Below, piece after piece: positions 746-17,000 of a stretch of DNA of 25,193 nucleotides; the first letter of the stretch is position 1; each line of letters begins with the position of its first letter. Origin of the DNA: a virus. The stretch lies in IMG/VR virus record IMGVR_UViG_3300036835_000434, positions 1 through 25,193 of that record, one strand, 5' to 3'. Under the pieces are notes generated by a model. That model had not been told where the DNA came from. It saw nothing but the letters and a program-made list of their open reading frames with translations, and did no database searches. The position numbers and the translations under genes are program-made.

Positions 746-756
746 GGTTAACTAGC
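746..756 (+). promoter_or_regulatory. GGTTAACTAGC motif, copy 1
   Basis: Perfect 11-mer, preceded by a related half-copy GGTTACCTA (736-744) exactly 10 bases upstream. The longer context TACCTAAGGTTAACTAGCA matches copy 2 (minus strand, 14582-14564) at 18 of 19 positions. It lies in the 182-base gap between the integrase and the exported protein. I infer a regulator binding site; no good promoter hexamers were found beside this copy. Confidence 0.5.
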
Positions 757-1759: not shown

Positions 1760-1770
1760 GGTTTACTAGC
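1760..1770 (+). promoter_or_regulatory. GGTTTACTAGC motif, copy 4 (one mismatch)
   Basis: Differs from the GGTTAACTAGC consensus at one base. Match to copy 2 continues through GGTTWACTAGCAACA (15 of 16 positions), and both copies are followed by a ribosome binding site (GGGAGG) within about 25 bases. It lies in the 5' leader from the promoter at 1716-1744. It could act as DNA operator or RNA element. Confidence 0.5.
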
Positions 1771-4449: not shown

Positions 4450-4661
4450 GTCAACGGTGCCGGGAGCGGTGCAGGTCCAGTAGTGTTCCGTGCTCCGCTA
4501 CCGGGATTGGGGATCGCTGCCGGATTGATTGCGCTTCCGCTCGTGTCGTGCTGACAATCGCACCATGTTCCCCCGGGGCAATCCCTATGGAATAGCTCAG
4601 CGTTGCGGTTAAGCCCCTGGCTCAGCCGATCCCCGGCCAAAAGGCAAGAGTGACAGATCAT
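4299..4661 (-). CDS. Zinc-ribbon phage protein with probably chimeric C-terminus
   Basis: Start at ATG 4661 with GGAGG (4670-4666) 4 bases upstream, overlapping the previous stop by one base. The N-terminal about 42 residues are convincing: MICHSC, a helix, LFHRDCPGGTWCDCQH, a Cys/His-rich small domain known in actinophages as a stand-alone short protein ending soon after CDCQH. Here the frame continues for about 78 more residues of low-complexity sequence, and for the last 151 bases it runs out of frame over the 4237-4449 gene. I infer that the original stop was lost at a recombination joint near 4490-4550. The real product may be 120 residues with a meaningless tail. Confidence 0.5.
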   Translation of the reverse strand: MICHSCLLAGDRLSQGLNRNAELFHRDCPGGTWCDCQHDTSGSAINPAAIPNPGSGARNTTGPAPLPAPLTWTASFYARGTPRSMATTWGRQGESGRCVTRSSRPRSATSSATRAWTKIP

Positions 4662-5317
4662 CAAACCTCCATTTGCGTACACTCATAACCGCAACCCGCA
4701 TAACCCGCGATATCAACCCAGTGATCCCGCTTGCCCGGAGTCCACATAAGGCGGGAGAGCTTCACGCTCATAACCATGATGGCGATATCGTGCGGCTGTA
4801 GGTGCCTGCCATCGGGCCCGCGGTAACCATAGGCGTTGAGCGCCTCAGCCGACCGCATGAAGTCTTGGGAGGGCGGCCCGTAGGAGTTATTACGGTCTCC
4901 CGTGATGAGTGCCTTAGCTTCGTCCAGAGCGCTTGCCCGGGGTGAAGGTGTCTCCGTTGGCGTCTCGATCGGATCAAAGATCCAGCCTAGTAGCTGAGAC
5001 TCGCTCGCTTGCACGAAGCGCTTTCCGGTTGCCTGGGCAACCCTCACCTCAAGCTTAGCGCCTTCGCTCTTTTCCCATCCGGGCAGCAACACAACCACGT
5101 CACTATTTAGCACATGCTGTATATCGGCTTGCATATACATCGTTGTCGGCAACGTTTGATCTCCGCCCCAATTGCGGGCCGGATTGAGGATCTTACACGT
5201 CCCGTCAGTCTCCCAGGTGAAATCCGCGGACTCAAGAGCATCCTCAACGGCAAGGAACGCGGGATAGTTGTGCTCAGGGATTCCCCGCATGGGCCCCGAC
5301 AGATAATAAGTTGTCAT
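4661..5317 (-). CDS. DUF4406 - DUF6378 fusion, nucleoside-processing-like protein
   Basis: A 218-residue protein with two domains. Residues 1-110 match DUF4406: YYLSGPMRGIPEHNYPAF at the start, VVVLLPGWEKSEGAKLEV in the middle, i.e. a fold related to nucleoside 2-deoxyribosyltransferases, with the glutamate of GAKLE in the position of a family-conserved acidic residue. Residues about 128-218 match the phage family DUF6378: DEAKALITGDRNNSYG, then HDIAIMVMSVKLSRL and RDHWVDIAGYAG. The two domains are commonly separate phage proteins. Substrates are unknown; handling of nucleosides or nucleotides is an inference. It overlaps neighbours by one base on each side. Confidence 0.75.
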   Translation of the reverse strand: MTTYYLSGPMRGIPEHNYPAFLAVEDALESADFTWETDGTCKILNPARNWGGDQTLPTTMYMQADIQHVLNSDVVVLLPGWEKSEGAKLEVRVAQATGKRFVQASESQLLGWIFDPIETPTETPSPRASALDEAKALITGDRNNSYGPPSQDFMRSAEALNAYGYRGPDGRHLQPHDIAIMVMSVKLSRLMWTPGKRDHWVDIAGYAGCGYECTQMEV

Positions 5318-5562
5318 CAGCTATCGCATCCATAATCATGCTTCAAATCAAGGAAGAGCAAATAAAACCTGTAGGCCCGCTTCTGCTGCTCTGTAGCGTC
5401 CGGTCCTGGCTTAGCCACTGGTATCTGAGCCGACAGATTGAAGATAGCGCACCAACGCGATTGCGATTGCTGCACACTATAGATCGTTAGCCAAGTGCTA
5501 GCGCCAAACGATACGAACATGAGCAGCACGAGCGCGGCAATAGATAGGTGAAGTGATCTCAT
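5317..5562 (-). CDS. Membrane-anchored small protein, 81 aa
   Basis: ATG at 5562. One N-terminal hydrophobic segment (LSIAALVLLMFVSFGASTWLTIY, residues about 6-28), then a soluble tail with conserved-looking RWCAIFNL, a Pro-rich stretch and an end YRFYLLFLDLKHDYGC. This layout (TM, WC, GC end) is familiar from small membrane proteins of actinobacteriophages. It follows the 74-residue membrane protein with a 4-base overlap. The pair may act together, for example in the membrane during lysis or exclusion, but this is a guess. Confidence 0.65.
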   Translation of the reverse strand: MRSLHLSIAALVLLMFVSFGASTWLTIYSVQQSQSRWCAIFNLSAQIPVAKPGPDATEQQKRAYRFYLLFLDLKHDYGCDS

Positions 5563-5783
5563 GGTGCGGCCCTGCCCTTCACTCCCTCAAGGAAGGCGAG
5601 GCGCTCCCGGAGCCCCACCATATCATTAACAACATCTCTCAGATTTCCGTTAAGCTCTTTGATAGCGGCAGTGTTTTCCTTCGTTGCGTTGGTTAGTGCG
5701 AATCCACTGCGGACGATAACGAAGATTGCGCCAAGCAATGACACAAGCCCGCCCACGGCGGCCAGGATCGTTACAATAATCAC
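5559..5783 (-). CDS. Membrane protein with coiled coil, DUF2746/holin-like
   Basis: GTG start at 5783, three bases after the preceding stop at 5787. Residues 3-24 form one hydrophobic helix (VTILAAVGGLVSLLGAIFVI); residues about 33-66 are an amphipathic coiled coil (KENTAAIKELNGNLRDVVND, then RERLAFLEG). This resembles small DUF2746-type phage proteins sometimes annotated as holin-like. Placement in the early operon, far from any lysin, argues that a lysis role is not certain. Confidence 0.6.
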   Translation of the reverse strand: MIIVTILAAVGGLVSLLGAIFVIVRSGFALTNATKENTAAIKELNGNLRDVVNDMVGLRERLAFLEGVKGRAAP

Positions 5784-5786
5784 GTC

Positions 5787-5963
5787 TTACCCCTTAGCTC
5801 TTCCCCCGGGCGTTGCAACCGCGATAGCTTCGGGGTGCATGCGCTCTGTTGGGATAACCGGGCAACCGTAAAGCCCTGTATCAAGGTGATACCACTCCCC
5901 GTACTCGGGATCTTTGGCGATTGCGTTATGACAGATTGAGCAAAACTCCGCTTGCTTCTTCAT
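5787..5963 (-). CDS. Small zinc-ribbon-like protein, 58 aa
   Basis: Short frame of 58 codons starting at ATG 5963 in an ATGA overlap with the gene upstream. It encodes CSICHNAI near the N-terminus and YHLDTGLYGCP in the middle, so one CxxC plus a further Cys and His that could make a small zinc site. The tail ends TPGGRAKG. Such short Cys-rich proteins are common in phage early operons. Role unknown. Confidence 0.6.
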   Translation of the reverse strand: MKKQAEFCSICHNAIAKDPEYGEWYHLDTGLYGCPVIPTERMHPEAIAVATPGGRAKG

Positions 5964-6313
5964 TTAGCCTCCCTCTTGAGGGCTTCCGCCCGTTGCTTCA
6001 ACAATCCTTCAAGAGCCACATACGTGGCTTGCCTAAACACGGCATCCCCTGGGAAGGGGTTGCCTGGGATCGGGATAGGCGATATCAGATCCGTATAACC
6101 GATCAACGGGTTTCTCATGGTGAGCGTGATAACCCAGACGGGCCCAAGGAAGGTATCCGCCTGGCCAGGAATCGGCAGGAGCCCGAAGGAATGCCCAACC
6201 TCGTAGGCGATAGTGTCACGGTTCACTAGGCCATATTCGGAAGCCAGCTTTACGGCCGCGTCGGCTATGGCGTCTTTAACGAGCGTCTCCAGCCGTTGCC
6301 TTTGATCGATCAC
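5960..6313 (-). CDS. Hypothetical phage protein, 117 aa
   Basis: GTG start at 6313, overlapping the TAG of the previous gene by one base. N-terminal helix (RLETLVKDAIADAAVKLASEYG), then a beta-rich centre (TFLGPVWVITLTMRNPLIG) and a C-terminal helix ending ALKREAK. No motif that allows a function. Tightly coupled on both sides. Confidence 0.65.
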   Translation of the reverse strand: MIDQRQRLETLVKDAIADAAVKLASEYGLVNRDTIAYEVGHSFGLLPIPGQADTFLGPVWVITLTMRNPLIGYTDLISPIPIPGNPFPGDAVFRQATYVALEGLLKQRAEALKREAK

Positions 6314-6621
6314 TAGGCCACTCTCCCTACTGGGTTCCCGCCTGCCGCCGTCCGTGTCGGCCGGTAGATAACCGGGGCCTCAAAGTCACATTTGCAGCCT
6401 GAGCCCATTTGCTTGCCGCATATGCCGCATTTGAGCCCGTAAGCTCCGGTCACGCGGAGCCATCCGAAAGGGGTACGGACATACCGCTTGTTGGTGAATC
6501 CCCGCCTCCGCATAGCCAGCCAACGCCTATCGGTAGCCAGGCGGCCCCTCAGGAAGTGATCCCAGGGGCCGTAGTCAACGGGGCCCCGGCCTCCGTGCCC
6601 CTCAACCATGGGCGGAAGCAT
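6313..6621 (-). CDS. Zinc-finger-like basic protein, 102 aa
   Basis: ATG at 6621 chosen; a second ATG at 6609 is possible. The protein is basic and Trp/Arg-rich (WLAMRRRGFTNKRYVRTPFGW), then carries LKCGICGKQMGSGCKCDF, with five closely spaced cysteines forming a probable zinc site at residues about 64-80. Could bind nucleic acid, but this is an inference. One-base overlap with the next gene. Confidence 0.6.
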   Translation of the reverse strand: MLPPMVEGHGGRGPVDYGPWDHFLRGRLATDRRWLAMRRRGFTNKRYVRTPFGWLRVTGAYGLKCGICGKQMGSGCKCDFEAPVIYRPTRTAAGGNPVGRVA

Positions 6622-6793
6622 CTTGCCATTCCGTCACATAGACGGCCCGAAACTTGGCTTTGCCTTCGCGGCTCTCCGCAATCTTGTAGGCTTCCTCAAT
6701 ATCATCACAAGGCAAAATGAAGCCACTATCAAAGATAACCGCGAAATCATATCTATACCATTCAAGCTTCGCCCCATTAGCTTTAACCGCCAT
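6602..6793 (-). CDS. Hypothetical phage protein, 63 aa
   Basis: ATG at 6793, with AAGAGG 4 bases upstream. A GTG three bases earlier is an alternative. The sequence (AKLEWYRYDFAVIFDSGFI, then EEAYKIAESREGKAKFRAVYVTEWQ) suggests a small beta-alpha-beta domain. No family recognised. It overlaps the TOPRIM gene by 11 bases and the next gene by 20. Confidence 0.6.
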   Translation of the reverse strand: MAVKANGAKLEWYRYDFAVIFDSGFILPCDDIEEAYKIAESREGKAKFRAVYVTEWQDASAHG

Positions 6794-7493
6794 CACGCCT
6801 CTTATCCGGGAAGACCTGCCGTCTTAGCGTCTCCGTCTCACCCTTCGCAACCATGCTTGACACGTCTTCCCCTTCGGGGCATTCAATGATCCGGACTCGC
6901 CAGCCGAGGGTTTCCGCTATCGCCCTGGATAGCTCTAGTCCTGGCCGTTGCCCCGTCCGGGAATCTTCGGGATCTCCGTCTGTGAATACGATCACGCTCC
7001 TAAAATCTTTGAGCACGGGGGCCCATATTTTTCTTTTGTCATGCCATACTTTCGCCCCGGGGATTCCTAGGGTTGGGAGCCCTAGTATTTCCGTGGCTAC
7101 GATGGCGTCTATTTCGCCTTCGGCTAGCCCGATCGATTCGCCTGCCGCAAAATAGGCGTTGACGTTATAGAGCCGTTTCTTTTGCCCCGCGTATTGTGAA
7201 AATTTGGGGACGTTATTCCCGTGGGTTGCGAGCTTCCTAAACGTGATTGCAGCTACCCCGGCCGGGGTGAGGTAGGGGATTGAGAGCATCCCCCGGAATC
7301 GCTCATCCCCTGGCAGGGGTGAGGTGACGAGGCCCAGGCGGTAAAGCTCGCTTGCCGCGATGCCGAGAGTGAGCCCGTGGCTAGTCAAGTAGGCTTCTGT
7401 CCCATGAGGATCGTTGGGGCTTATGGCCTCTAGCTGGCTCGCGTATTCCCCGGCTGCTAGCTCCAAGGTTTCTCTCCGCAAACTCAAGGGCAC
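6783..7493 (-). CDS. DNA primase, TOPRIM catalytic subunit
   Basis: A 236-residue protein from a GTG start at 7493. It contains a DnaG-type TOPRIM domain: SIPYLTPAGVAAITFRKL before it, the TOPRIM glutamate in IGLAEGEIDAIVA (about residue 127), and the paired acidic residues in VIVFTDGDPED (about residue 170). DnaG-type primases make RNA primers for lagging-strand synthesis. Here the zinc-finger part is a separate upstream gene in another frame, and the two frames overlap by 113 bases. Homologous actinophages also split primase in two. Together with the 12437 helicase this forms the phage replication set. Confidence 0.85.
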   Translation of the reverse strand: MPLSLRRETLELAAGEYASQLEAISPNDPHGTEAYLTSHGLTLGIAASELYRLGLVTSPLPGDERFRGMLSIPYLTPAGVAAITFRKLATHGNNVPKFSQYAGQKKRLYNVNAYFAAGESIGLAEGEIDAIVATEILGLPTLGIPGAKVWHDKRKIWAPVLKDFRSVIVFTDGDPEDSRTGQRPGLELSRAIAETLGWRVRIIECPEGEDVSSMVAKGETETLRRQVFPDKRRDGG

Positions 7494-7713
7494 CCCTGTA
7501 ATCTAGATTTTCCGCGCGTTTGATCACTCCTATAGCGTCTCCGCCCATGTTGCATGCATGGCAGAGGAAGGCGTTAGCTTCAAGGTTGACGGAGGCTGAG
7601 GCTATCCGGTCGGCATGAAAAGGGCACTTAACTGGCCGCCATCCGTAGCCATTGACGCGGGCGAGGTCGGCTCCGTAATGCTCTAGGACGGCCGAGATTG
7701 TTAGCTCACTCAT
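7381..7713 (-). CDS. DNA primase, CHC2 zinc-finger subunit
   Basis: ATG at 7713 (MSELTIS); the frame is open to 7869 but that overlaps the endonuclease gene. Encodes a 110-residue protein with the CHC2 zinc finger of DnaG primases: KCPFH at residues about 27-31 and FLCHAC at about 47-52, followed by GGDAIGVIKRAENLDYRGALEFAER. This domain binds template DNA for priming. It ends in an Arg-rich tail that is encoded by the same DNA as the first 37 residues of the TOPRIM gene in another frame. Confidence 0.85.
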   Translation of the reverse strand: MSELTISAVLEHYGADLARVNGYGWRPVKCPFHADRIASASVNLEANAFLCHACNMGGDAIGVIKRAENLDYRGALEFAERNLGASSRGIREPARGHKPQRSSWDRSLLD

Positions 7714-8110
7714 ACTTAAATCGTGGCCGCGATTCAATAATAGAAATCGCCTCGTTAGCCTTCGTTCGCCTACGCTGCCCCAGCCACGGCATAAAGGCCA
7801 ATAGAATAACCCCGTTGTCCTGGGGCTTGTACGAGCGCCAAATCTGCGCACGCTTATAGGGCTTACCATCTAGGCGAGTTTTACCGTAATAGGAATGCTC
7901 CGCTACGATGCCGCATCCAACTATGTCCGCAAAGCGTTGCAAGGAATCAAGGTCTGTATTGCACAAGGTTAGTCGCACATAAGGGCCGCCCCGTGTGCCC
8001 GCAACGCGGCCGTTCATATACGTATAAATGCATCCTTCCCCTTCAAAATAGCCCGCTGCCCATGCCGTATCTTCGGGCGAAGCGCTCCAAATTATCTTCT
8101 CAATTCGCAT
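7706..8110 (-). CDS. LAGLIDADG homing endonuclease
   Basis: ATG at 8110 gives 134 residues. A LAGLIDADG-type motif is present as AAGYFEGEGCIYTYM (about residues 18-32), whose acidic residue takes part in metal-dependent cleavage. The following GPYVRLTLCNTDLDSLQRFADIVGCG is the typical second half of such a domain. One motif copy implies a homodimer. Free-standing homing endonucleases cut a specific site and spread by repair. The gene sits between two early genes and overlaps the primase zinc-finger gene by 8 bases, with a weak ribosome binding site, suggesting a later insertion. Confidence 0.8.
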   Translation of the reverse strand: MRIEKIIWSASPEDTAWAAGYFEGEGCIYTYMNGRVAGTRGGPYVRLTLCNTDLDSLQRFADIVGCGIVAEHSYYGKTRLDGKPYKRAQIWRSYKPQDNGVILLAFMPWLGQRRRTKANEAISIIESRPRFKYE

Positions 8111-8117
8111 TGGGCAC

Positions 8118-8441
8118 TCACTTAACCCGGCCAGCCCTGTAAGCGTCAACCGCGTTAACAAACTCATCCCGCTTCCGGTCAATGTGAGCCTTGGCCGCCT
8201 TGTCTGCCTCATCGCCAAGAGCCTTCCTCAAGGCTTCCGTTGCCTGCCTCACGAGATGCTCAAGGAAGCTCTCCATTAGGCCAACTTCAACCGGGGGCAT
8301 GTAGCTCTGGGTTGTAAGGCGCTTGCCGTTATAGCCGACCTCAATCCGGTAAGTGGGAATATAGTTCCCGAAGCCGTCAAAGGGTCCGTAGCCCGGTCCT
8401 TCTGGCGTAACCTCAAAACGGAAATAGTTAAGCTTGCTCAT
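8118..8441 (-). CDS. Hypothetical phage protein, 107 aa
   Basis: ATG at 8441 with GAGAGG a few bases upstream. N-terminal beta-like part (KLNYFRFEVTPEGPGYGPFD, TYRIEVGYNGKRLTTQ) and a long C-terminal helix (VGLMESFLEHLVRQATEALRK, then KAAKAHIDRKRDEFVNAVDAY). No family recognised. It overlaps the gene upstream by 14 bases and is followed after 7 bases by the homing endonuclease. Confidence 0.65.
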   Translation of the reverse strand: MSKLNYFRFEVTPEGPGYGPFDGFGNYIPTYRIEVGYNGKRLTTQSYMPPVEVGLMESFLEHLVRQATEALRKALGDEADKAAKAHIDRKRDEFVNAVDAYRAGRVK

Positions 8442-8703
8442 TGATACCTCTCCCGATGATCTCAAAACGCCTCTTGCCGTCTGGTAGGATATGGAGACAC
8501 ATTTGCACTTGCCGCCGTGCCTGCCTTAGCTTCTCTTCCTTGATGACGGCCAGGACTAGCCGATCATGGCCAGGCTTCCTCTTGCCGGAATGCCCGTTAT
8601 AGTCACTCCGATTTTTGCCCCGCGGTTTCGGGGCCCTGTACTTCAATTTGAGATTCGGCCCCGTTAGCTCTATCAACGATTCCCCTTCGGGATAGCTCAT
8701 CAT
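8428..8703 (-). CDS. Basic hypothetical protein, 91 aa
   Basis: ATG at 8703 (or 8700). A strongly basic middle (KYRAPKPRGKNRSDYNGHSG, then KRKPGHDR) is followed by a helix and a strand-rich end (LVLAVIKEEKLRQARRQVQM, then ILPDGKRRFEIIG). The first 101 bases overlap the resolvase gene in another frame. The basic composition would suit nucleic-acid binding, which is an inference. Confidence 0.6.
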   Translation of the reverse strand: MMSYPEGESLIELTGPNLKLKYRAPKPRGKNRSDYNGHSGKRKPGHDRLVLAVIKEEKLRQARRQVQMCLHILPDGKRRFEIIGRGINEQA

Positions 8704-8998
8704 CGGCCAGCCGGCGAAGCACCAAATACTCTGACGGATCTTCCCCCTGGCCGTTGCTCCGGATGATCACGCACGGACGGTCCCCCCGGGCCGCGTTACC
8801 CTTGGATTGCTCAAGCCATGCCATAGGCCGGAAATCCGACCGGGCTTTAACCTCGATGGCATGCCCTGGTACTCCCAGGATGTCGCGGCCCGGGTAGCTC
8901 GCTGGCACACGCCTGGCACGGGACCAACCGTGCTCCCTAAGCCAACGGGCAACGTTGGCTTCCGTTCGCCTTGAGCGCCTTACACGGGCGTTAGCCAT
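8603..8998 (-). CDS. Hjc-like Holliday-junction resolvase / PD-(D/E)xK nuclease
   Basis: ATG at 8998, 131 residues. The first 100 residues show the archaeal-Hjc-like nuclease pattern: RRTEANVARWLREHGW with an active-site Glu, RVPASYPGRDILGV with the Asp, and HAIEVKARSDF with the ExK pair (about residues 48-54). This fold resolves branched DNA from replication and recombination before packaging. The core ends near LVLRRLADDE; the last 30 residues are read from DNA that also encodes the start of the next gene. The neighbouring nuclease and primase genes fit a replication/recombination module. Confidence 0.78.
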   Translation of the reverse strand: MANARVRRSRRTEANVARWLREHGWSRARRVPASYPGRDILGVPGHAIEVKARSDFRPMAWLEQSKGNAARGDRPCVIIRSNGQGEDPSEYLVLRRLADDELSRRGIVDRANGAESQIEVQGPETAGQKSE

Positions 8999-9001
8999 GG
9001 C

Positions 9002-9160
9002 TCAGAGGGCTAGCGCCGCTAGCACCATGACAACGATTAGGAAGAGATCGATAAGCACGGAGAAGACTAGCGCGCTCCGGCTGCTAGTCAGGTAATAGAT
9101 GTTTGCGAGCATGCCAGCGAAGAGCAACGTAGCCCCGGTAAACAAGAGGATCTCAAGCAT
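9002..9160 (-). CDS. Small membrane protein, two spans, 52 aa
   Basis: Short frame from ATG 9160, ending three bases before the resolvase start. It has two hydrophobic segments, residues about 2-23 (EILLFTGATLLFAGMLANIY) and about 30-52 (ALVFSVLIDLFLIVVMVLAA), joined by a polar turn LTSSRS, i.e. a hairpin in the membrane. Overlaps the gene upstream by 8 bases. Function unknown; its shape is similar to many small phage membrane proteins. Confidence 0.65.
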   Translation of the reverse strand: MLEILLFTGATLLFAGMLANIYYLTSSRSALVFSVLIDLFLIVVMVLAALAL

Positions 9161-9509
9161 TCGGCTTGTCCTTCGCCTCACGGAGCCTCTCTACCGGAAG
9201 TGTCGGCTCACCTTCTGGCACAATCGGCGGATCGGGATTAATCCTCATACGATGCCAGCCGTCCGGGCGTCTCATCCAGTAGAGCCCCTTGGCGTCAATG
9301 TGTACCCCGTTTTTGTACTGGGATTCATGCGTGACCGTGAAGCTAGCGTTAGAGTCAAGGGTAAACAATACCTCCATATTACTTGGCACGTAATCAAGGC
9401 CCCAAGGATCGGCAATGAGGCTGTATCTGTTCTTCCGTATGGAAACGTCAGTACCCCTCGTTGCAATCTTGCCGCTAATGGTGATCGTAAGCTTGTCGCC
9501 CGGTTGCAT
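9153..9509 (-). CDS. Hypothetical phage protein, 118 aa
   Basis: ATG at 9509 chosen because AAGGGG lies 7 bases upstream; a GTG at 9533 would add 8 residues. The protein is beta-rich (KLTITISGKIATRGTDVSIR, MEVLFTLDSNASFTVTHES) and includes WMRRPDGWHRMRI, then a Pro-rich tail. The first half looks like a small barrel. The same general shape recurs in the protein at 11423-11791 (MSHGFTPGTKVRVEFEGTVT), which may be a distant paralogue. Confidence 0.62.
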   Translation of the reverse strand: MQPGDKLTITISGKIATRGTDVSIRKNRYSLIADPWGLDYVPSNMEVLFTLDSNASFTVTHESQYKNGVHIDAKGLYWMRRPDGWHRMRINPDPPIVPEGEPTLPVERLREAKDKPNA

Positions 9510-9523
9510 TCCTGGCCCCTTCG

Positions 9524-10009
9524 TCACGTCCACTTATTAAACCCGCACTTGTTACGCCAATCGTCGCCCGATCCCTTCGCGCAACGGTAAGCGTTGAAGA
9601 AACCGCCCTTAGCCTTCGGCCCATGCACCAACGCGGCCGGCTCGTCACAGTCACAGTTGGGCCCGCCCGGGGGGTTGAGCGTCCAGGTTTGCATGCCGTT
9701 GGGGCCCTTCACGTTGAGCACGGCAGGCCCCCTCGATTGCTGCCCGGCATCCTGGGCATAGGAGGCACTCCCTGCCGACCTCTCCGGAGCACTTGCTACA
9801 GAGCCACGGCCGCCGGCGGGCGTCGTGCCATCGGGGGAAGGGTTTGCACGGCTCTCTGTGGCTCTCAGGGCCGTAGAGGGCCCGTCTGAGGCCCAGGGAT
9901 CGGCCGGGGCCGCCTGGCCTCCGGAGCCCCCGGAAACCGTGGGCATGATCCGGTCTAGGATCTCTGCCGCTACATAATCTAGGACTTCCCTTACCGCGTC
10001 ACTAATCAT
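9524..10009 (-). CDS. Zinc-ribbon protein with long Pro/Ser/Gly linker
   Basis: ATG at 10009 in an ATGA overlap with the nuclease gene. A short N-terminal helix (AVREVLDYVAAEILDRIMP) is followed by about 75 residues of low-complexity Gly/Pro/Ser/Ala sequence, then a C-terminal Cys cluster CDCDEP ... YRCAKG ... NKCGFNKW, which fits a four-cysteine zinc ribbon like those of topoisomerase tails and phage single-strand-binding companions. Position next to the Cas4-like exonuclease suggests a role in DNA processing, by inference only. Confidence 0.65.
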   Translation of the reverse strand: MISDAVREVLDYVAAEILDRIMPTVSGGSGGQAAPADPWASDGPSTALRATESRANPSPDGTTPAGGRGSVASAPERSAGSASYAQDAGQQSRGPAVLNVKGPNGMQTWTLNPPGGPNCDCDEPAALVHGPKAKGGFFNAYRCAKGSGDDWRNKCGFNKWT

Positions 10010-10809
10010 GCTGCCGCCTTCCGTCCCGTGATCTTCGGGGCAACCATAAACGTCTTGCCGTCGTTAGCCATTGACTCATCAAAAACCGCCTTCATGCCAA
10101 GGAAGCCGTCAAAGGCACTATTGATCACCTCGGAGGGCACAAGGCTTAGCTCCGCAAACCTCGGCCGGAGGTGCAAAACCGCGCAACGGTCAAACTTCGG
10201 TAGCTCCCGCTCCGTGCCATCAACGTCAAGGATGATATCCGCGTTAGCCAGGGCCGCTAGCTGATATCTCACGTCTTCGTAAACCCGGTTGCCCGTCTTC
10301 GTGTCGCCCAGGACAAACCAATTTTTGATGTATGCTGCCCAATCGGCCGTGCCCGCATATCCGTACCTGTTAGACCAAACGGTAAATTCTGACATCTCCC
10401 ATGCGGGCTCATAGCTGGCCGTGAAGTCTTCAAAGCGGGCGAACATTTCCCGGGCCGCGCGGGGGGCCTTATCCCATTCGATCGCATCATCATGCCTAGG
10501 CTCTACGCCCGTTTTGATAAAACCGTCAATCCATGCATGCACGAGATCCCCAATAGCGGCCGGATCATCCGGGCCCCGCATGAAGGGAGCTTGCCTCACA
10601 AGCTGTACCCGCTCGTTGCGGTCAAGGGCCTGGAGCTTCTCAAGGTTGTCTGCCGCGTACTCTCCCGCCTTCCTGGCGGCCCAGTGCTTCAAGCCGTCTA
10701 TGCTCTTGATGCCCTTAATGTTGGTGATGCTTGGCACTTGGACGCCTCTTGTTGGGTGAGCATAGAAGCGGCCGAAGGGCGTTGATGTACTTAGAGCCGG
10801 AGCCGTCAT
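10006..10809 (-). CDS. Cas4/RecB-like PD-(D/E)xK exonuclease
   Basis: ATG at 10809, 267 residues. Active-site pattern of the RecB/Cas4 group: IGDLVHAWIDG with the His (about 91), GYAGTADWAA with Asp (about 156), LGDTKTG with the DxK pair (169, 171) and VRYQLAALANA with the Gln helix (183). Opening VPSITNIKGIKS is also typical of phage members. These nucleases degrade DNA ends for recombination. The iron-sulfur cysteines of true Cas4 are not seen. There are no CRISPR genes or repeats nearby, so this is a phage recombination nuclease rather than CRISPR adaptation. Confidence 0.82.
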   Translation of the reverse strand: MTAPALSTSTPFGRFYAHPTRGVQVPSITNIKGIKSIDGLKHWAARKAGEYAADNLEKLQALDRNERVQLVRQAPFMRGPDDPAAIGDLVHAWIDGFIKTGVEPRHDDAIEWDKAPRAAREMFARFEDFTASYEPAWEMSEFTVWSNRYGYAGTADWAAYIKNWFVLGDTKTGNRVYEDVRYQLAALANADIILDVDGTERELPKFDRCAVLHLRPRFAELSLVPSEVINSAFDGFLGMKAVFDESMANDGKTFMVAPKITGRKAAA

Positions 10810-11061
10810 GCTGCCAGCCTCTCTTGCCGCTCCCAGACGGCTAGACCGAAGACGTTAACGATTACAATGGGCTTTTGCAGGCCCCGGGCATACCGGATCG
10901 TTGCCCATGTGCCTCCCCCGGTATCGGCAAGCATGGCGGGAGCGGCAACCAATACATCGGAGGCCCGGACGATTGCCCGGTTACGGGCAAGGTAGGGCTC
11001 CGGCGGAAGGTAACTCGCGGCATGGTGGCACCAAGCCCCCCGTGAAGCCTACGCTTAGCAT
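10806..11061 (-). pseudogene. Decayed SLOG/LOG-family nucleotide-binding protein
   Basis: An ATG at 11061 overlaps the stop of the upstream gene and begins MLSVGFTGG, the normal beta1-glycine-rich start of a SLOG protein. That frame stops soon. In a second frame, from about 11030 to the TGA at 10806, the C-terminal half is intact: YLPPEPYLARNRAIVRASDV, then GGGTWATIRYARGLQKPIVI. No start codon serves this frame. Compared with the family, about 60 residues from the middle are missing and the frame is shifted. The end still overlaps the Cas4-like gene in ATGA. I conclude it was broken by an internal deletion and is no longer functional. Confidence 0.7.
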
Positions 11062-11426
11062 GCCCACACGGCCCCAAAGATCCGGAGTTGATCCGATCGG
11101 CTCCAAGGGTCATTGAGGCGGATATCCTCCGCCATCATCAAGAGGTGAGAAACGTAGGTTTCAAGCCCGGGAACCCTTACCGCCTTCCGGGCTTCGCCCA
11201 GGATGCGGCAGAGGGTTTTTTCGCTAGGTGTGACCTGGGCGGATACCTCATGTATCCGGGCTTCTAGGGTGATTCCCTCAATAACCCGACTCTTGAGGCG
11301 TTTCCCCACGTCGCGTGATTTACGCCATGCGGGCTTGCAAGCCTCGCAAATCCTCTGTTGCTTAACCCTCCGGCTGAACTTCGTCTCACACTTCCGGCAA
11401 CGGATCGGCCGCAAGGTGACGCTCAC
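11055..11426 (-). CDS. Zinc-ribbon protein, 123 aa
   Basis: GTG start at 11426 in a GTGA overlap. N-terminal CRKC (10-13) and CEAC (27-30) form a classic four-cysteine zinc ribbon, followed by a basic, helical region (KPAWRKSRDVGKRLKSRVI) and a helical C-terminus (PGLETYVSHLLMMAEDI). Probably a nucleic-acid-binding or protein-docking factor; no named family recognised. The stop overlaps the start of the broken SLOG gene. Confidence 0.65.
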   Translation of the reverse strand: MSVTLRPIRCRKCETKFSRRVKQQRICEACKPAWRKSRDVGKRLKSRVIEGITLEARIHEVSAQVTPSEKTLCRILGEARKAVRVPGLETYVSHLLMMAEDIRLNDPWSRSDQLRIFGAVWAC

Positions 11427-11791
11427 TCTTCGCCCCTCCGGTAAACGAGCTTCGGGCTTGACGCCCTAAGATCGGCGGGATGGATGCCGTATCCGGTTGA
11501 TTCCTCAACGAAGACGGTCCCCCCGCCTTGGAGGTGAACAAAATAACGCTTGCCGCGTTCGGTTTCCCAAATGTCGCCCGCCGCAGGCGGCCAGGATTCC
11601 GGCTCGCTCCGCTGGATAACCCTTACCTCTCGGGCGCTCCCTGCCCATATGAGATGATGCACATTGCGGGAGTCCTTAACCTCTACCCAAAATTCTTTAC
11701 TAAGCGCGCCATCGTTGAGATAAACGGGCCGGGTAACCGTGCCCTCAAACTCAACCCGAACCTTAGTGCCAGGCGTGAAACCGTGACTCAT
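11423..11791 (-). CDS. Hypothetical beta-rich phage protein, 122 aa
   Basis: ATG at 11791 (MSHGFTPGT), with GGGAAGG 3-4 bases upstream. An ATG at 11803 is possible but lacks an RBS. Alternating strands (KVRVEFEGTVTRPVYLN, then EFWVEVKDSRNVHHLIWAG) and a second half DIWETERGKRYFVHLQGGG suggest a small SH3-like or OB-like barrel. No enzymatic motif seen. Confidence 0.62.
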   Translation of the reverse strand: MSHGFTPGTKVRVEFEGTVTRPVYLNDGALSKEFWVEVKDSRNVHHLIWAGSAREVRVIQRSEPESWPPAAGDIWETERGKRYFVHLQGGGTVFVEESTGYGIHPADLRASSPKLVYRRGEE

Positions 11792-11806
11792 TAGCCTTCC
11801 CATCTT

Positions 11807-12136
11807 TCAGAGCGCCTCATCCGGAAACGGGTTACCAATAACCATGCTGAATCCGTGCCCCTCAACCGCGGAGAGCACAACATCACGGACAAGCCCGCTA
11901 GGCTCGTTATCGTCGTTGAGCATTCCCCTATCGTGAAGCTCACAGACAGAATCCGTCATAGCGATATAGCCCGGATCGCGGCACATGCAGACAAGCTCAT
12001 AAAACGAGACCGGATCATTGTGCATGAGATCGACAAGACAAAGCTTGACCACTCCCGCCATATAGAGCGGGATCTTCCTGCCGCCATGCTTGAGCGGGGC
12101 GAGATCGGTAATCTTCCGCCCTCCGGTAGTGCTCAC
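11807..12136 (-). CDS. Hypothetical phage protein, 109 aa
   Basis: GTG start at 12136 chosen: it overlaps the stop of the 34-residue membrane peptide (GTGA) and has GGGAG 7 bases upstream. The frame is open to 12169. Helical segments (GVVKLCLVDLMHNDPVSFYE, GLVRDVVLSAVEGHG) with several cysteines (LVCMCRDPGY) and an end GNPFPDEAL. No family recognised. Confidence 0.6.
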   Translation of the reverse strand: MSTTGGRKITDLAPLKHGGRKIPLYMAGVVKLCLVDLMHNDPVSFYELVCMCRDPGYIAMTDSVCELHDRGMLNDDNEPSGLVRDVVLSAVEGHGFSMVIGNPFPDEAL

Positions 12137-12237
12137 AGAACCACTCCCATCATGTAGACAATGAGCCACACTCCCGCCAGATAGGCGAGTTGAAGCCAGA
12201 ATTGCAGAGGGAAAAGCCAGCTAAATATTGCCCTCAC
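12133..12237 (-). CDS. Tiny membrane peptide, 34 aa
   Basis: GTG at 12237 overlaps the TGA of the gene upstream, and its own TGA overlaps the next GTG; both junctions are GTGA. The peptide is almost entirely hydrophobic and Trp-rich (IFSWLFPLQFWLQLAYLAGV, then WLIVYMMGVVL). It would lie in the inner membrane. The double coupling is good evidence that it is translated. Confidence 0.6.
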   Translation of the reverse strand: MRAIFSWLFPLQFWLQLAYLAGVWLIVYMMGVVL

Positions 12238-12440
12238 GTAACCGTCACCCAACGCATAGCGGCACGGAGCAAGCCCTCATAATCGCCCGACGTTGCCTCT
12301 TCCCGGAAGGCGCTAACCTCCGCCTCCGGGACTCCCGCGCGGCGCAAAGCCCGCGAAACCCGCGCCAGGATTGCAAACGCATTGCCATCCTGGCCGCTAA
12401 GCTCAACCTCAACATCCGGGTACTTAACCTGAGCGCTCAT
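12234..12440 (-). CDS. Conserved small protein, 68 aa
   Basis: ATG at 12440 overlapping the helicase stop by 4 bases. The sequence YPDVEVELSGQDGNAFAILA followed by a helix (RVSRALRRAGVPEAEVSAF) and EEATSGDYEGLLRAAMRWV is a pattern I recognise as widespread in actinobacterial phages and plasmids, without assigned function. One compact alpha/beta domain. It is coupled to the helicase gene. Confidence 0.72.
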   Translation of the reverse strand: MSAQVKYPDVEVELSGQDGNAFAILARVSRALRRAGVPEAEVSAFREEATSGDYEGLLRAAMRWVTVT

Positions 12441-13237
12441 CTAGTCTCCAGTTGATAACTCACGTCTTCAATCGCCAAATCGTCATGAACCCAAAACGAA
12501 AGAAACGTCTGTGCAAGGGGATCTTGCGGGCCGTTAGTATTCTTCACACACGACACATTCAAAGCCATATGGCTAGCGGCACACGTCAACACGAGGCGAG
12601 GGATCTGGGTTACTTTCCCCTGTATCTCCCAGTCCGCCGGCGGGCTCCCGTTGTTGTTATCCTTATCCACCTTCGCATGATGCAAGATGCAAACGTGAGC
12701 CCGTGTCTCCCTCGCCAGTACGTCTAGTTGCTTCGTCAATTCGATTTGGCTAACCCAGTCCCCCGCGCTATCCGCGTAATCGATCAAGTTATCGATGATG
12801 GCGAAATCCGGCCAGGCACCATACACGGACTCAAACGAGCTAAACCGGGAAGCGATCCCCGCCATATCGAGAGACTCATACACGAAATGCACGGAGCCCA
12901 GGCGGGTTAGCGCTTCCTCATAGCGGCCCGTATCCTTGCCCTCAAAGCGGCGCTCAACCGCCGTGCCCGTGTCCCCCGTCAGGATCGCGCCAAGGCGCTT
13001 GCAAACGGTTCCCTCGTCAGAGTCGGCCGAGAAGTAAAGCCCCCGCTTGCCCGCCCTGGCCCATGCGATGATCATGTTGAGCGCTAGTACAGACTTGAAG
13101 CTCCCGGGCTTTCCCGCGATCATGCTTGTTGCCCCCTGGCGGAATTTGATGCGGGCAAGCTCAAACGAGGGGAAGGGATCGGGCAGAGGCCGGCCCAGGG
13201 AGCCTACCCGGTTGGCGAATTTCCACGGGCTGAGCAT
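12437..13237 (-). CDS. RecA-fold ATPase, replicative-helicase-like (RepA/DnaB type, AAA_25)
   Basis: ATG at 13237, overlapping the previous TGA by one base; 266 residues. Walker A AGKPGSFKS (about 41-49), then LYFSADSDEG, Walker B DFAIIDN (about 144-150) and VCILHHAKVDK, with the histidines typical of RepA/AAA_25 proteins. These form hexameric helicases or loaders. With the split primase gene it supplies replication-fork function. The protein is short and lacks the N-terminal domain of cellular DnaB, as in plasmid RepA-type helicases. Confidence 0.85.
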   Translation of the reverse strand: MLSPWKFANRVGSLGRPLPDPFPSFELARIKFRQGATSMIAGKPGSFKSVLALNMIIAWARAGKRGLYFSADSDEGTVCKRLGAILTGDTGTAVERRFEGKDTGRYEEALTRLGSVHFVYESLDMAGIASRFSSFESVYGAWPDFAIIDNLIDYADSAGDWVSQIELTKQLDVLARETRAHVCILHHAKVDKDNNNGSPPADWEIQGKVTQIPRLVLTCAASHMALNVSCVKNTNGPQDPLAQTFLSFWVHDDLAIEDVSYQLETR

Positions 13238-13389
13238 CAACGATCACGCTTCCGCAGATAGGCGGCAATCCGCCAAAGCAAGTTAGCTATCGCGTGCCCG
13301 TCTTGGTTGATCTCCGATAGGTCAAGCCCGCTAACCGTGTTGCCGGCTTCCTCGATGATCCGGGCCGCTATCCGGTCAAAGCTCATCAT
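13237..13389 (-). CDS. Small hypothetical protein, 50 aa
   Basis: ATG at 13389 overlaps the methyltransferase stop (ATGA); the open frame extends upstream but only inside that gene. Helical throughout (MSFDRIAARIIEEAGNTVSG, then HAIANLLWRIAAYLRKRDR). One-base overlap with the helicase gene suggests co-expression and possibly a helicase accessory role, which is a guess. Confidence 0.6.
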   Translation of the reverse strand: MMSFDRIAARIIEEAGNTVSGLDLSEINQDGHAIANLLWRIAAYLRKRDR

Positions 13390-14129
13390 GCGGCCCGCCC
13401 AAGGGTTGCCAGGGCTTCGGCCTCCGCCTCCCAAGGCGGGAGGTCAAGGCTCAGGGCTGCGCGAAGGTGCCATCCGACGTAAGTGGCGAAGACGGGCGGG
13501 ATAGCCTCAGCTAGCTCTTCACGGTTCATCCAGTCAACGCCCATAACCTCATATGCCGCCTTCTGGTGACCACGGCCGCGAAGAGAGCTGCCCTTGCCTG
13601 GCCCATGGCCGGCCACCAAGACGGGGCGCAATGAGTGATCACACTTGACCGGGGGCGCGGGAATGCTCACGTTGGACTCAAAGCCCCTATGCCGCCAGAG
13701 CCCAACCTTCCCATGAGGCTCCCAAACCGTAGAGAGCCCGAAATGAGAGCCACACAACGTAACCGGCCAGCGAAGCGGGGCTTGGGGCACATTCTCAATC
13801 ACGTAAGGCACCCCGAGCTTTGCCAGGCGTTCCCTCGTGGGAGGGATCAAGTTGGGATATTGCGCCGCTAGTCCTGGCCGACAACGAGCCATCTTGCTAA
13901 ACGCCTGACAAGGCGGGGAAGCATGCACGGCATCAAACCAAAACGATCCCCCATCCGGCCGGGCAGCCATCATCAAATCAAGATATTGCAAAGCGTCACC
14001 TTGGATGAAAGAAAACGGATAGTGAGGCTGAGGCTCTTTATCAACCCCGATCACGTTAAAACCTGCCCGATGGTAGCCAACGGCGGCCCCGCCCGCCCCG
14101 CAAAAGAGGTCAAGCAAAAGCGGTTTCAA
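13386..14129 (-). CDS. DNA cytosine-5 methyltransferase
   Basis: TTG start at 14129 (TTGA overlap with the PRTase gene), 247 residues. Motif I LLLDLFCGAGGAAVGYHRAG (SAM binding), motif IV HASPPCQAFS with the catalytic Cys at about 74, motif VI YVIENVPQ with the Glu at about 112, and IPPVFATYVGWHLRAAL near the end for motif X. Shorter than bacterial C5 enzymes because the target-recognition region is small. No cognate restriction enzyme is next to it, so it is an orphan methylase that may protect phage DNA from host restriction. The target sequence cannot be read from this. Confidence 0.88.
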   Translation of the reverse strand: MKPLLLDLFCGAGGAAVGYHRAGFNVIGVDKEPQPHYPFSFIQGDALQYLDLMMAARPDGGSFWFDAVHASPPCQAFSKMARCRPGLAAQYPNLIPPTRERLAKLGVPYVIENVPQAPLRWPVTLCGSHFGLSTVWEPHGKVGLWRHRGFESNVSIPAPPVKCDHSLRPVLVAGHGPGKGSSLRGRGHQKAAYEVMGVDWMNREELAEAIPPVFATYVGWHLRAALSLDLPPWEAEAEALATLGRAA

Positions 14130-14539
14130 CTTGTGATCTCAGGCATAGAGTTACGGATATTGAGCTTGTAAGAATGGGTCCGGAGGATACGGCGGGCGTA
14201 AAGGTAGGTTGCCGCATGCTTAGAGCCGTAACGCTCAAGGAGGCTCACGACACGGCGGGCCGTAGTCCCGTCTTGTATGAAATCGTCAAGGAAGAGGAAG
14301 CGGAGGCCCAGGCCAGCGAGATTTTCAACGAGAGAGCATCCGTGATGCTCGTCTGACGGCTTCCGGGCGATCACGAGCGGCTTATCAAGCTCCATGGCGG
14401 CCGGGAGGCCAATAACGATACCGCTTAGGCCGGTAACCGCGATGGTATCGAAACGGCGGGAAACGGGGCGGAGATCGGCAACCGCATTGGCCACGGTCGG
14501 CCCAAGGTCGGCCAGGCCCGACATTCCGTGATAAAGCAT
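14126..14539 (-). CDS. Type I phosphoribosyltransferase
   Basis: ATG at 14539 with GGGAGG upstream; 137 residues. The PRPP-binding loop is LFLDDFIQDGTTARRV (about 82-97), the family hallmark of two acidic residues followed by a Gly-Thr-Thr turn; an earlier VTGLSGIVIGLPAAMEL holds the pyrophosphate-loop region. The family transfers phosphoribose to purines or pyrimidines. It is the first gene after the leftward promoter and is coupled to the C5 methyltransferase, which suggests that both act early on nucleotides or DNA. The substrate cannot be told. Confidence 0.82.
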   Translation of the reverse strand: MLYHGMSGLADLGPTVANAVADLRPVSRRFDTIAVTGLSGIVIGLPAAMELDKPLVIARKPSDEHHGCSLVENLAGLGLRFLFLDDFIQDGTTARRVVSLLERYGSKHAATYLYARRILRTHSYKLNIRNSMPEITS

Positions 14540-14553
14540 TCTGCCTCCCGGGA

Positions 14554-14572
14554 AACTAGCCTGTTGCTAGTT
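14554..14572 (-). repeat. Perfect inverted repeat in the early leader
   Basis: AACTAGC (14554-14560) and GCTAGTT (14566-14572) are exact inverted copies around a 5-base loop. The stem would form just before the PRTase ribosome binding site and shares its right arm with motif copy 2, so it may be a dimer operator or a leader hairpin. Confidence 0.55.
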
Positions 14573-14576
14573 AACC
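14566..14576 (-). promoter_or_regulatory. GGTTAACTAGC motif, copy 2, at the leftward early start site
   Basis: Read leftward, the motif begins 6 bases after the -10 box TACGAT (14588-14583), so it covers the expected transcription start. That is the classic place for a repressor operator. Longer match to copy 1: TACCTCAGGTTAACTAGCA against TACCTAAGGTTAACTAGCA. Confidence 0.58.
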
Positions 14577-14582
14577 TGAGGT

Positions 14583-14611
14583 ATCGTAGCATACGGGTTT
14601 TGAGGCTGTCC
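14583..14611 (-). promoter_or_regulatory. Leftward early promoter
   Basis: Read leftward: GGACAG (14611-14606), 17 bases, TACGAT (14588-14583). The -35 is weak but the -10 is good and has an upstream TGC. It would drive the whole leftward operon starting with the PRTase gene. It mirrors the rightward promoter about the centre 14634. Confidence 0.6.
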
Positions 14612-14678
14612 GGTCCTGGCCGGCGGGCATTTGTTGACGGAGGCCAGGAAAGGACCGGACAAGCAAGAGCCCCGTATG
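14590..14678. repeat. Nested palindrome at the divergent promoters
   Basis: CATACGGG (14590-14597) and TGTCCGGTCC (14607-14616) on the left are exact inverted copies of GGACCGGACA (14652-14661) and CCCGTATG (14671-14678) on the right. Both pairs, and the two -10 boxes outside them, share one symmetry centre at 14634. TGGCC/GGCCA (14617-14621, 14642-14646) adds an off-centre inner pair. Confidence 0.75.
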
Positions 14679-14685
14679 GTATGAT
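14657..14685 (+). promoter_or_regulatory. Rightward mirror promoter
   Basis: GGACAA (14657-14662), 17 bases, TATGAT (14680-14685), the mirror image of the leftward promoter (CCCGTATGGTATGAT against CCCGTATGCTACGAT). Expected start near 14692, in the AT-rich segment that ends with the 13-bp stem at 14789-14816. Confidence 0.55.
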
Positions 14686-14763
14686 CATATTGAGTAAAGA
14701 CATTTAGCCCAAAAAAATCGTGAAGAATAGGTTTAAGGATCTTGAATACTGGGTACTAAAGTT

Positions 14764-14787
14764 ACATATATATAATACATATATATA
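14764..14787. repeat. Direct repeat ACATATATATA
   Basis: The 11-mer occurs at 14764-14774 and 14777-14787, 13 bases apart, inside the AT-rich segment. A TATAAT sequence bridges the two. It could be an unwinding element or protein-binding iteron, but two copies are too few to prove it. Confidence 0.5.
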
Positions 14788-14788
14788 A

Positions 14789-14816
14789 AGACACACACTC
14801 TACAGAGTGTGTGTCT
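14789..14816. terminator. Perfect 13-bp stem, probable terminator
   Basis: AGACACACACTCT (14789-14801) and AGAGTGTGTGTCT (14804-14816) are exact inverted copies with a 2-base centre. The stem has A/T-rich flanks on both sides, so it could stop transcription from either direction. A TATAAT (14819-14824) follows directly. Confidence 0.6.
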
Positions 14817-14830
14817 TCTATAATTAAATA

Positions 14831-15210
14831 TATGTGTCCTGAGCGGAAGATTAGACCGCGTGGACTTCTGGCCGGGGGATCTCTGGGCAGCAAGACGGTT
14901 GGCACTTGCCGTCTCCCGCCTCCCGCTAGCGTCTTCGTGCCGCCTCAGGGCAAGGGGTTTCCGTCTTTTCCCCCCGGAGCTACCGGAAACAAAGACGGGA
15001 CAATTTAAGCCCGCCTGGGCCGGCTTGAGCGGCCCCAGAAGGGCAATGATCGGCTCTCCGTGAGGTGAGGGATCGGGTTACCGCCCGGCCGGCAAAGCCG
15101 GGGCCGTGGGGCCCGGAGATTCACCCCGGTTGGCCACGGGGAGCGGAGGGAGCCAGGCGGCAACCGACATGGGTTGTCTGATTCTGGCAGTAGCCCCGGA
15201 GAGCCTTCGC
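14831..15210. other. Gene-poor stretch with competing hairpins
   Basis: I see no convincing gene. Short frames exist on both strands, but they lack ribosome binding sites. Four segments are mutually complementary: AAGACGG (14892-14898), CCGTCT (14909-14914), CCGTCTTT (14961-14968) and AAAGACGG (14991-14998). A further stem GTTTCCG/CGGAAAC (14957-14963, 14984-14990) competes with the last pair. This is attenuator-like, but no known riboswitch class was recognised. Confidence 0.4.
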
Positions 15211-15429
15211 TTACGGCCGCCGTGAGTTGAGCACAACCCTGGCGGCCAGGCCAACGGCCAGGCCCACAACAGCACCTATTAGCCTTCCGAGAGGATCACG
15301 TTGCCGAAGCTCGCCCGCTTCCCCGCGTTTGCTGCCCGTGTCGTCTATGTCTTCGTCAGTGAGTACCGGAGGCTTGACGCTCCGCCCCCGGGCCCGGTAC
15401 GGGCAGAGATCTCGTGTACCTCGGCCCAC
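15211..15429 (-). CDS. Possible small C-terminally anchored membrane protein
   Basis: Leftward frame of 72 residues from a GTG at 15429 without a good RBS. The C-terminal half looks real: an acidic stretch PPVLTDEDIDDTGSKRGEAG, then LGRLIGAVVGLAVGLAARVV, a plausible membrane helix. The same frame continues upstream, after two adjacent stops, into a short frame (15508-15621) starting MSEAPGTTREDG with GGGGAG before it, so this may be a once-longer gene broken by stop codons. The opposite strand is also open, so confidence is low. Confidence 0.35.
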   Translation of the reverse strand: MGRGTRDLCPYRARGRSVKPPVLTDEDIDDTGSKRGEAGELRQRDPLGRLIGAVVGLAVGLAARVVLNSRRP

Positions 15430-15507
15430 GTTGAGCGGGCCTGGCAGCCCTACTCCTACGCCCGCCGGCTTGGGAGTGTCGGCTTCGCCCGGCCTCAGGA
15501 AGCGTCA

Positions 15508-15621
15508 CTAACGGAGCCCGGCCGTCAATCGCGGGGGCCACGAGACGGCCAGGCCCCGCCGTGACGGGCTAGGCTCTACCCCGGAGCCATCCTCCCTAGT
15601 TGTGCCGGGGGCTTCGCTCAT
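15508..15621 (-). CDS. Possible short peptide, 37 aa, or 5' remnant of the 15211 gene
   Basis: ATG at 15621 preceded by GGGGAGTG. It encodes MSEAPGTTREDGSGVEPSPS and ends in TAG-TGA. It is in the same frame as the possible membrane protein downstream. Without a homologue I cannot tell a real peptide from a remnant. Confidence 0.22.
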   Translation of the reverse strand: MSEAPGTTREDGSGVEPSPSRRGLAVSWPPRLTAGLR

Positions 15622-15672
15622 CACTCCCCAGGCGGGCTCACGGTCGCCCAACCAAGCCCGCCTAAGGTGATG

Positions 15673-15698
15673 GTCAACCGAAGGTCAAGAGTTGTCAA
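15673..15698 (-). promoter_or_regulatory. Three helically phased TTGAC repeats
   Basis: On the minus strand TTGAC starts at 15698, 15688 and 15677, one DNA turn apart. The first is a perfect -35 (TTGACA), but only weak -10 candidates follow. The arrangement is more like a set of operator half-sites next to motif copy 3. Confidence 0.4.
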
Positions 15699-15700
15699 GG

Positions 15701-15711
15701 GCTAGTTAACC
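15701..15711 (-). promoter_or_regulatory. GGTTAACTAGC motif, copy 3
   Basis: Perfect 11-mer on the minus strand, 2 bases from the TTGACA repeat. It lies in the gene-free region before the tRNA. Same orientation as copy 2. Confidence 0.5.
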
Positions 15712-15872
15712 CCCCGTTATGAGGCGGCCCGCCCCCGGGTTAGCTCGCTAGCTTGCGTGCCCAGCGTGCGGCACATCGGGCCCTGGCTGCCAGGGGCGGG
15801 CCTTAAGGGCGGACGGGCTGAGACTTGGAGCCGACGCATGCCCGCCCTTGTTTAACGGTAGCACAATCTCAG

Positions 15873-15946
15873 GGCGGGATAGAGCAGTTAGGTAGCTCGC
15901 TAGCCTCATAAGCTAGAAGTCATAGGTTCAAATCCTATTCCCGCCC
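15873..15946 (+). tRNA. tRNA-Met (CAU anticodon), phage-encoded
   Basis: Full cloverleaf: acceptor GGCGGGA/TCCCGCC, D stem GAGC/GCTC, anticodon stem CTAGC/GCTAG with loop CTCATAA (anticodon CAT at 15907-15909), T stem ATAGG/CCTAT with TTCAAAT loop. The G-C first pair and overall form resemble the CAU tRNAs common in actinophages. The sequence alone cannot exclude tRNA-Ile with a modified C34. No CCA is encoded. It lies alone upstream of the rightward late genes. Confidence 0.92.
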
Positions 15947-15958
15947 CCTAATTGATGG

Positions 15959-16824: not shown

Positions 16825-17000
16825 GTTTCCGCAGGTCAGAGGCTTGTGATCTTTTAGCGTTTGCCCTGGACGGAGCCGGCTCGCTTATCGAATTTCTCTC
16901 CCCATGCCATTCCGGAGCCATTGTTAAATGGGCAGAATTGAAAGTGGAGTCAAATCCGACCTCCGCAAGCTTGGCATTTCCCGGCCAAAATCAGCGCTAG
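16821..17000 (+). CDS. Possible coupled small protein, 59 aa
   Basis: GTG at 16821 overlaps the HNH stop (GTGA). The frame reads MSFRRSEACDLLAFALDGAG and continues 73 bases into the small terminase gene in a different frame. The stop-start overlap and the otherwise empty 103 bases favour a real gene; the long overlap and lack of homologues are against it. Confidence 0.38.
   Translation: MSFRRSEACDLLAFALDGAGSLIEFLSPCHSGAIVKWAELKVESNPTSASLAFPGQNQR

Follow-up and report, generated by a model that had tools for sequence, protein, structure and literature searches.

The repressor of cluster A phages recognises an asymmetric operator site that overlaps P-left, and it also binds oriented intergenic stoperators (PMC5712189, PMC9283540). 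Bidirectional promoters of Escherichia coli have one common -10 region, with starts typically 10 to 23 bp apart, and are mutually exclusive (Warman et al. 2026; PMC12825309). The locus that we compared with these systems lies in a 25,193-nt IMG/VR virus record, the whole stretch of which is here called the window. HNH, terminase large subunit, portal, and major capsid genes, all rightward, occupy its right half, and its other landmarks include the following.

4661 to 14129, minus strand: other early/replication genes of the leftward operon (methyltransferase, DnaB-like helicase, exonuclease, RusA-like resolvase, primases, nucleotide enzyme)
14126 to 14539, minus strand: phosphoribosyltransferase-like gene, first of the leftward operon (phrog_2068, E 5.7e-12)
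15873 to 15948, plus strand: tRNA-Met, first recognised gene rightward of the palindrome

The terminase has its nearest cultured relatives in Rhodococcus, Arthrobacter, and Mycobacterium phages, at ~39% or less, and the best helicase matches come from cluster A mycobacteriophages (~33%). The same phage was present in another metagenome (L005, L029, and L030), where overlaps with the window are 100% identical, and that contig adds ~20 kb beyond the window, bringing the genome to ~45 kb. Since the extra ~20 kb encodes a serine integrase (E 1.2e-87) and a repressor-like gene, the phage is probably temperate, and we regard it as probably an uncultured actinobacterial virus of the L5-like (cluster-A-like) kind.

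As in the cluster A phages L5, D29, and StarStuff, a leftward early promoter, here a predicted one, precedes the replication operon and is overlapped by an asymmetric site, the motif is repeated elsewhere, with one orientation relative to transcription at those sites that precede identifiable genes, and the late genes run rightward (PMC5712189, PMC9283540). The serine integrase and a cluster-A-type DnaB-like helicase extend the likeness. The phage differs from cluster A in its motif, which is AGGTTWACTAGC and not GGTGGMTGTCAAG, in the number of sites (~8 to 13 versus ~24), and in its repressor, which is only remotely similar; unlike L5, whose late genes are transcribed from a start ~230 bp in from the opposite genome end, it has a mirror second promoter within ~116 bp. 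The palindrome region looks like a variation on a known type of phage control region, not like a new kind of system. We read the palindrome as back-to-back copies of one extended -10 promoter of the sigma-70/SigA type, of which only the left one has a phage operator over its start, a reading to which we assign a probability of roughly 60%.

Geometry of the palindrome and twin predicted promoters

An earlier note on this DNA had described a mirror palindrome with all its elements centred on 14634. The palindrome proved to be real and correct in every coordinate, and it comprises the following elements.

14583 to 14617, no strand assigned: left arm of the inverted repeat, 26 of 35 positions symmetric about 14634
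14583 to 14588, minus strand: -10 hexamer TACGAT of the leftward promoter (ATCGTA as written on the given strand), preceded by TGn (14590-14591)
14590 to 14597: outer left arm CATACGGG
14607 to 14612, minus strand: -35 hexamer CGGACA of the leftward, P-left-like promoter, 18-nt spacer
14607 to 14616: inner left arm TGTCCGGTCC
14651 to 14685, no strand assigned: right arm of the inverted repeat, 26 of 35 positions symmetric about 14634
14652 to 14661: inner right arm GGACCGGACA
14656 to 14661, plus strand: -35 hexamer CGGACA of the rightward promoter, 18-nt spacer
14671 to 14678: outer right arm CCCGTATG
14680 to 14685, plus strand: -10 hexamer TATGAT of the rightward promoter, preceded by TGn (14677-14678)

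The two 35-nt arms (14583-14617 and 14651-14685) are 74% complementary, with a mismatched centre of 33 nt, and no longer inverted repeat was found in the window; the perfect runs of 11 and 8 nt that the arms share in one register are unique within ~45 kb of phage sequence. Counted outward from the centre, the symmetric blocks cover k = 17 to 27 (AGGACCGGACA) and k = 37 to 51 (CCCGTATGnTAnGAT). These blocks, which hold the -35 and the extended -10, account for most of the mirror symmetry, and the unmatched arm positions lie mostly between them.

Both promoters read CGGACA-18-TAYGAT, the -35 hexamer matching TTGACA at 4/6 positions in each case. The mirrored -10 boxes of the earlier note were both present, and each of them is in addition extended by TGn. 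The -35 elements do lie within the arms, as had been claimed, but the hexamers GGACAG and GGACAA with a 17-nt spacer were one base off, CGGACA with 18 nt being the better choice. With a threshold of 4/6 or better in each hexamer, ~44 kb yielded just five extended -10 promoter matches, of which the mirror pair accounts for two, and this pair occupies the one place in the window where operons diverge. The starts are predicted at ~14576 (left) and ~14692 (right), ~116 bp apart. Two complete -35/-10 sets on opposite strands make this a divergent pair of the sigma-70 type. Like the bidirectional promoters of E. coli, it combines divergent starts, here predicted, with pseudo-symmetric DNA, but it consists of two complete back-to-back promoters whose starts are ~116 bp apart and belongs to the class of merely divergent promoters (PMC12825309). 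A bidirectional promoter in the strict sense is ruled out because of this distance, the -10 regions being not common but separate (14583-14588 and 14680-14685).

Alternatively, only the leftward promoter might be real, and the GC-rich DNA around it might be symmetric by chance. None of 60 dinucleotide shuffles of the whole window matched the 26/35 symmetric positions, whereas the ungapped symmetric score of 17 was reached in 4 of 200 whole-window shuffles, and under a harsher mismatch penalty the palindrome was unexceptional window-wide (80 of 200 shuffles). The palindrome is also absent from relatives. On the other hand, none of 2,000 local 600-bp shuffles reached the score of 17, and the symmetry falls exactly at the divergent boundary with the elements of both promoters in register. 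By itself the symmetry is moderately significant; it becomes convincing because it coincides with two extended -10 promoters at the sole divergent operon boundary of the window, and we consider an accidental origin highly unlikely.

The leftward leader and the operator-like motif

The leftward promoter had been proposed to drive the early replication operon, and the anatomy downstream of it supports this assignment. The predicted left transcript would start at ~14576 and carry a 37-nt leader with GGGAGG before an ATG at 14539, a layout that, as judged from the sequence, fits the expectation for an early promoter. By seeking words common to the left leader and the rest of the genome, we found an operator-like motif, and the sites discussed here are the following.

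14545 to 14550, minus strand: Shine-Dalgarno sequence GGGAGG in the 37-nt leader
14566 to 14577, minus strand: operator/stoperator-like site in the leader, AGGTTAACTAGC when read as the transcript, spanning the predicted left start at ~14576
746 to 756, plus strand (transcript orientation): operator-like site before gene 837-1646
1760 to 1770, plus strand: operator-like site GGTTTACTAGC, behind a promoter-like TTGTCT-17-TACGAT and before an ATG near 1780
15701 to 15711, plus strand: motif copy GCTAGTTAACC in a non-coding stretch, in the other orientation
L029, around 2502, 5591, 5606, and others: stoperator-like copies of the motif

The motif is asymmetric, and its exact form GCTAGTWAACC occurs at 8 sites in ~45 kb, while 98 of 100 shuffles contained none. 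Allowing up to one mismatch gave 13 sites in ~45 kb, and a 15-mer of the motif with up to three mismatches was observed 7 times against 0.37 expected. Two tandem copies lie directly before the repressor-like gene and one lies before the integrase gene. Relative to the next gene, the motif has the same orientation at six sites, namely, those before the early operon, gene 837, the ATG near 1780, the repressor-like gene (two sites), and the integrase gene; the others are in unclear context, and the copy at 15701 would be opposite if transcription there is rightward. Two features of the cluster A P-left/stoperator arrangement were found, an asymmetric ~13-bp motif repeated through the genome and a site, here 14566-14577, overlapping the early leftward promoter at its predicted start, 14576. 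The palindrome itself does not contain the motif, which covers the left start and is missing from the rightward one.

These observations bear on the possibility that the arms themselves are operators, a phage regulator on GGACCGGACA and/or CCCGTATG switching both promoters with one dimer per arm or by looping. Such a role would account for the symmetry that reaches past the hexamers (AGGAC, CCCG), and the mirrored elements of a relative described below (L040) resemble genuine dimer sites. However, GGACCGGACA showed no excess (26 matches with up to two mismatches versus 26.65 expected), no further good copies of the arms were found in ~45 kb, each arm is itself non-palindromic, and the properties of a phage operator belong to another motif. 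We therefore consider arm operators unlikely. The version in the earlier note, a single dimeric regulator covering both arms, is not supported: 45 bp separate the arm centres, too far for one simple dimer, and the over-represented motif is placed outside the palindrome. In our preferred reading, the arms would match because both are the same promoter, with the -35 and extended -10 blocks conserved and the spacer and centre drifted, and not because a dimer bridges them.

According to that twin-promoter reading, the left copy would be an early lytic promoter of the P-left type that drives the replication operon. A phage immunity repressor would bind the asymmetric site over its start, and the same site scattered elsewhere would act as stoperators. 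The right copy should escape this repressor, since it is without the operator.

The candidate for the repressor is the repressor-like protein, which is encoded at 4995-5579 of L029 and gave a weak match to phrog_3929 (E 1.2e-4), also matched by the immunity repressor of the cluster A phage used for comparison, HuhtaEnerson15. Because the two share only this weak profile match, with a pairwise BLAST comparison between them not significant and a single-sequence fold model of the candidate (pLDDT 44.9) too poor for a structure search, we describe the immunity system, by analogy, as one that appears to work like the cluster A operator/stoperator system and do not count it as a member. A PDB sequence search with the candidate gave no matches. 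If the twin-promoter reading is true, an uncultured actinophage lineage joins the users of operator/stoperator-type immunity, with a new motif. The layout, an early promoter and its mirror copy within ~100 bp with the operator apparently on one only, would be compact and would lend itself to straightforward tests of how one of two twin promoters is controlled alone.

The AT-rich segment and the rightward side

The rightward promoter had been said to enter an AT-rich segment, and this agrees with the anatomy of the region.

14683 to 14832, no strand assigned: AT-rich segment, ~29% GC, lowest duplex stability in ~45 kb (z -5.65, the next being ~-3)
14763 to 14788, plus strand: two tandem 13-mers TACATATATATAA
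14788 to 14817, no strand assigned: perfect 14-bp inverted repeat with a 2-nt loop, a possible terminator or cruciform (RNA fold z -4.0)

No clear gene lies directly behind the rightward promoter; the AT-rich segment is followed by ~1 kb of GC-rich DNA in which no genes were recognised and then by tRNA-Met. Transcription from the predicted promoter could stop at the hairpin and yield a short RNA, continue into the right arm, or trigger a replication origin. As one of the twin promoters, the right copy would start at ~14692 and run into the AT-rich DNA toward the hairpin, with read-through reaching tRNA-Met, HNH, and terminase.

The GC-rich stretch (14840-15870, ~1 kb, 67% GC) has no family match and ends before tRNA-Met, and the minus strand of 15401-15700 folds unusually well (z about -4.8). 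An Rfam scan of the window, aimed at this non-coding stretch, returned tRNA only and no other known RNA. The stretch is possibly an unrecognised structured RNA or a set of decayed genes.

The inverted repeat could alternatively act as a structure, either a cruciform, as the earlier note suggested, or an RNA hairpin/terminator, and single-strand folding of the palindrome was indeed favourable (z -5.6 as DNA, -5.2 and -5.4 as RNA). Its 33-nt mismatched centre speaks against this, a T-run is present on neither side, and the perfect hairpin at 14788-14817 is the better cruciform candidate. It is chiefly the promoter spacer that holds the unmatched bases, which is what promoters would lead one to expect, and a purely structural role seems barely plausible.

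The primary origin of phage T7 has promoters followed by AT-rich DNA. The present locus resembles it in that a predicted promoter fires into AT-rich DNA beside replication genes, and differs in that this promoter is host-type and the origin role only a candidate one. The palindrome region would then be a replication origin, or part of one, in which the AT-rich segment unwinds, rightward transcription opens or primes the DNA, and palindrome and hairpin serve as structural or initiator sites, all of which is compatible with the promoters. In line with this, the segment is much less stable than any other DNA in ~45 kb and contains the tandem 13-mers and the perfect hairpin, the cumulative GC-skew minimum of the window lies near 14 kb, the replication operon adjoins, and the least stable DNA of L040 is likewise placed. 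Yet the GC skew also tracks gene orientation, which flips at the palindrome, no initiator protein was recognised, and promoters and terminators are AT-rich too, and we consider an origin unlikely. If true, it would indicate a candidate replication origin in this phage group, in which origins are, to our knowledge, poorly defined.

Relatives and other recurrent elements

No relative spanning the palindrome was found in IMG/VR with the first left gene, the helicase, the right gene, the terminase, a terminase profile, or the repressor-like protein, nor in GTDB genomes with the terminase profile. Exact-pattern searches gave six unrelated matches for the inner arm, all without outer arms or -10s, and zero matches for the outer arms, and GenBank phages and plasmids gave nothing beyond tRNA-type and weak gene matches.

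The same layout was found in a 21.6-kb locus (L040) from a 54-kb contig whose terminase matches at 51%, with leftward genes (a DNA polymerase among them), a divergent gap, tRNA-Met, tRNA-Asn, HNH, and terminase. Its gap (6058-6127) contains two symmetric CRP-like boxes, TGTGAN6TCACA, 54 bp apart and the sole two in 21.6 kb, and the least stable DNA of the locus lies just right of them. As an inverted repeat, these mirrored boxes are not significant (reached by 5 of 60 shuffles), and the CTAGTTAAC motif is not common to this relative, its counts equalling those of the reversed-pattern control. This comparison of sequences is suggestive of mirrored control elements recurring at this spot with different sequences. 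One could go further and propose a mirror-built element that couples immunity and replication, in which the repressor-controlled left promoter would make the replication proteins, the repressor-blind mirror copy would activate an origin in the weakest DNA, and relatives would keep the layout and swap the element sequences; we consider this proposal quite unlikely.

Among other relatives with divergent regions beside the terminase, no comparable palindrome was found except the L040 boxes and a paired GGTGGTATACCACC in L006, and none was found in L044, L045, and L047, which have leftward genes near this place. L006, the closest relative, has extra leftward genes there and carries the palindrome GGTGGTATACCACC twice (2640-2690), in the gap before the terminase. 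Between HNH and terminase, L058 (8720-8810; L009, 7610-7696) carries four copies of AATTCGAACGG that form an inverted repeat, and a dense array of mirrored GTAGGGGGTCA/TGACCCGCTACG repeats fills 3291-3612 of L073, in a divergent gap.

Certain short words are over-represented across the window and L029, GCCCAGGCGG at 14 places and GTCCTGGCC at 13, many of them inside genes. The window also contains the element GCAGGTCAGAGGCTTG between HNH and terminase (16831-16846), and its core CAGGTCAGA occurs in the same region of more than 10 related phages, often in several copies and in both orientations. Two contigs of the same phage break at 16845 and 16855, and the element is a candidate cos/packaging or other recognition site.
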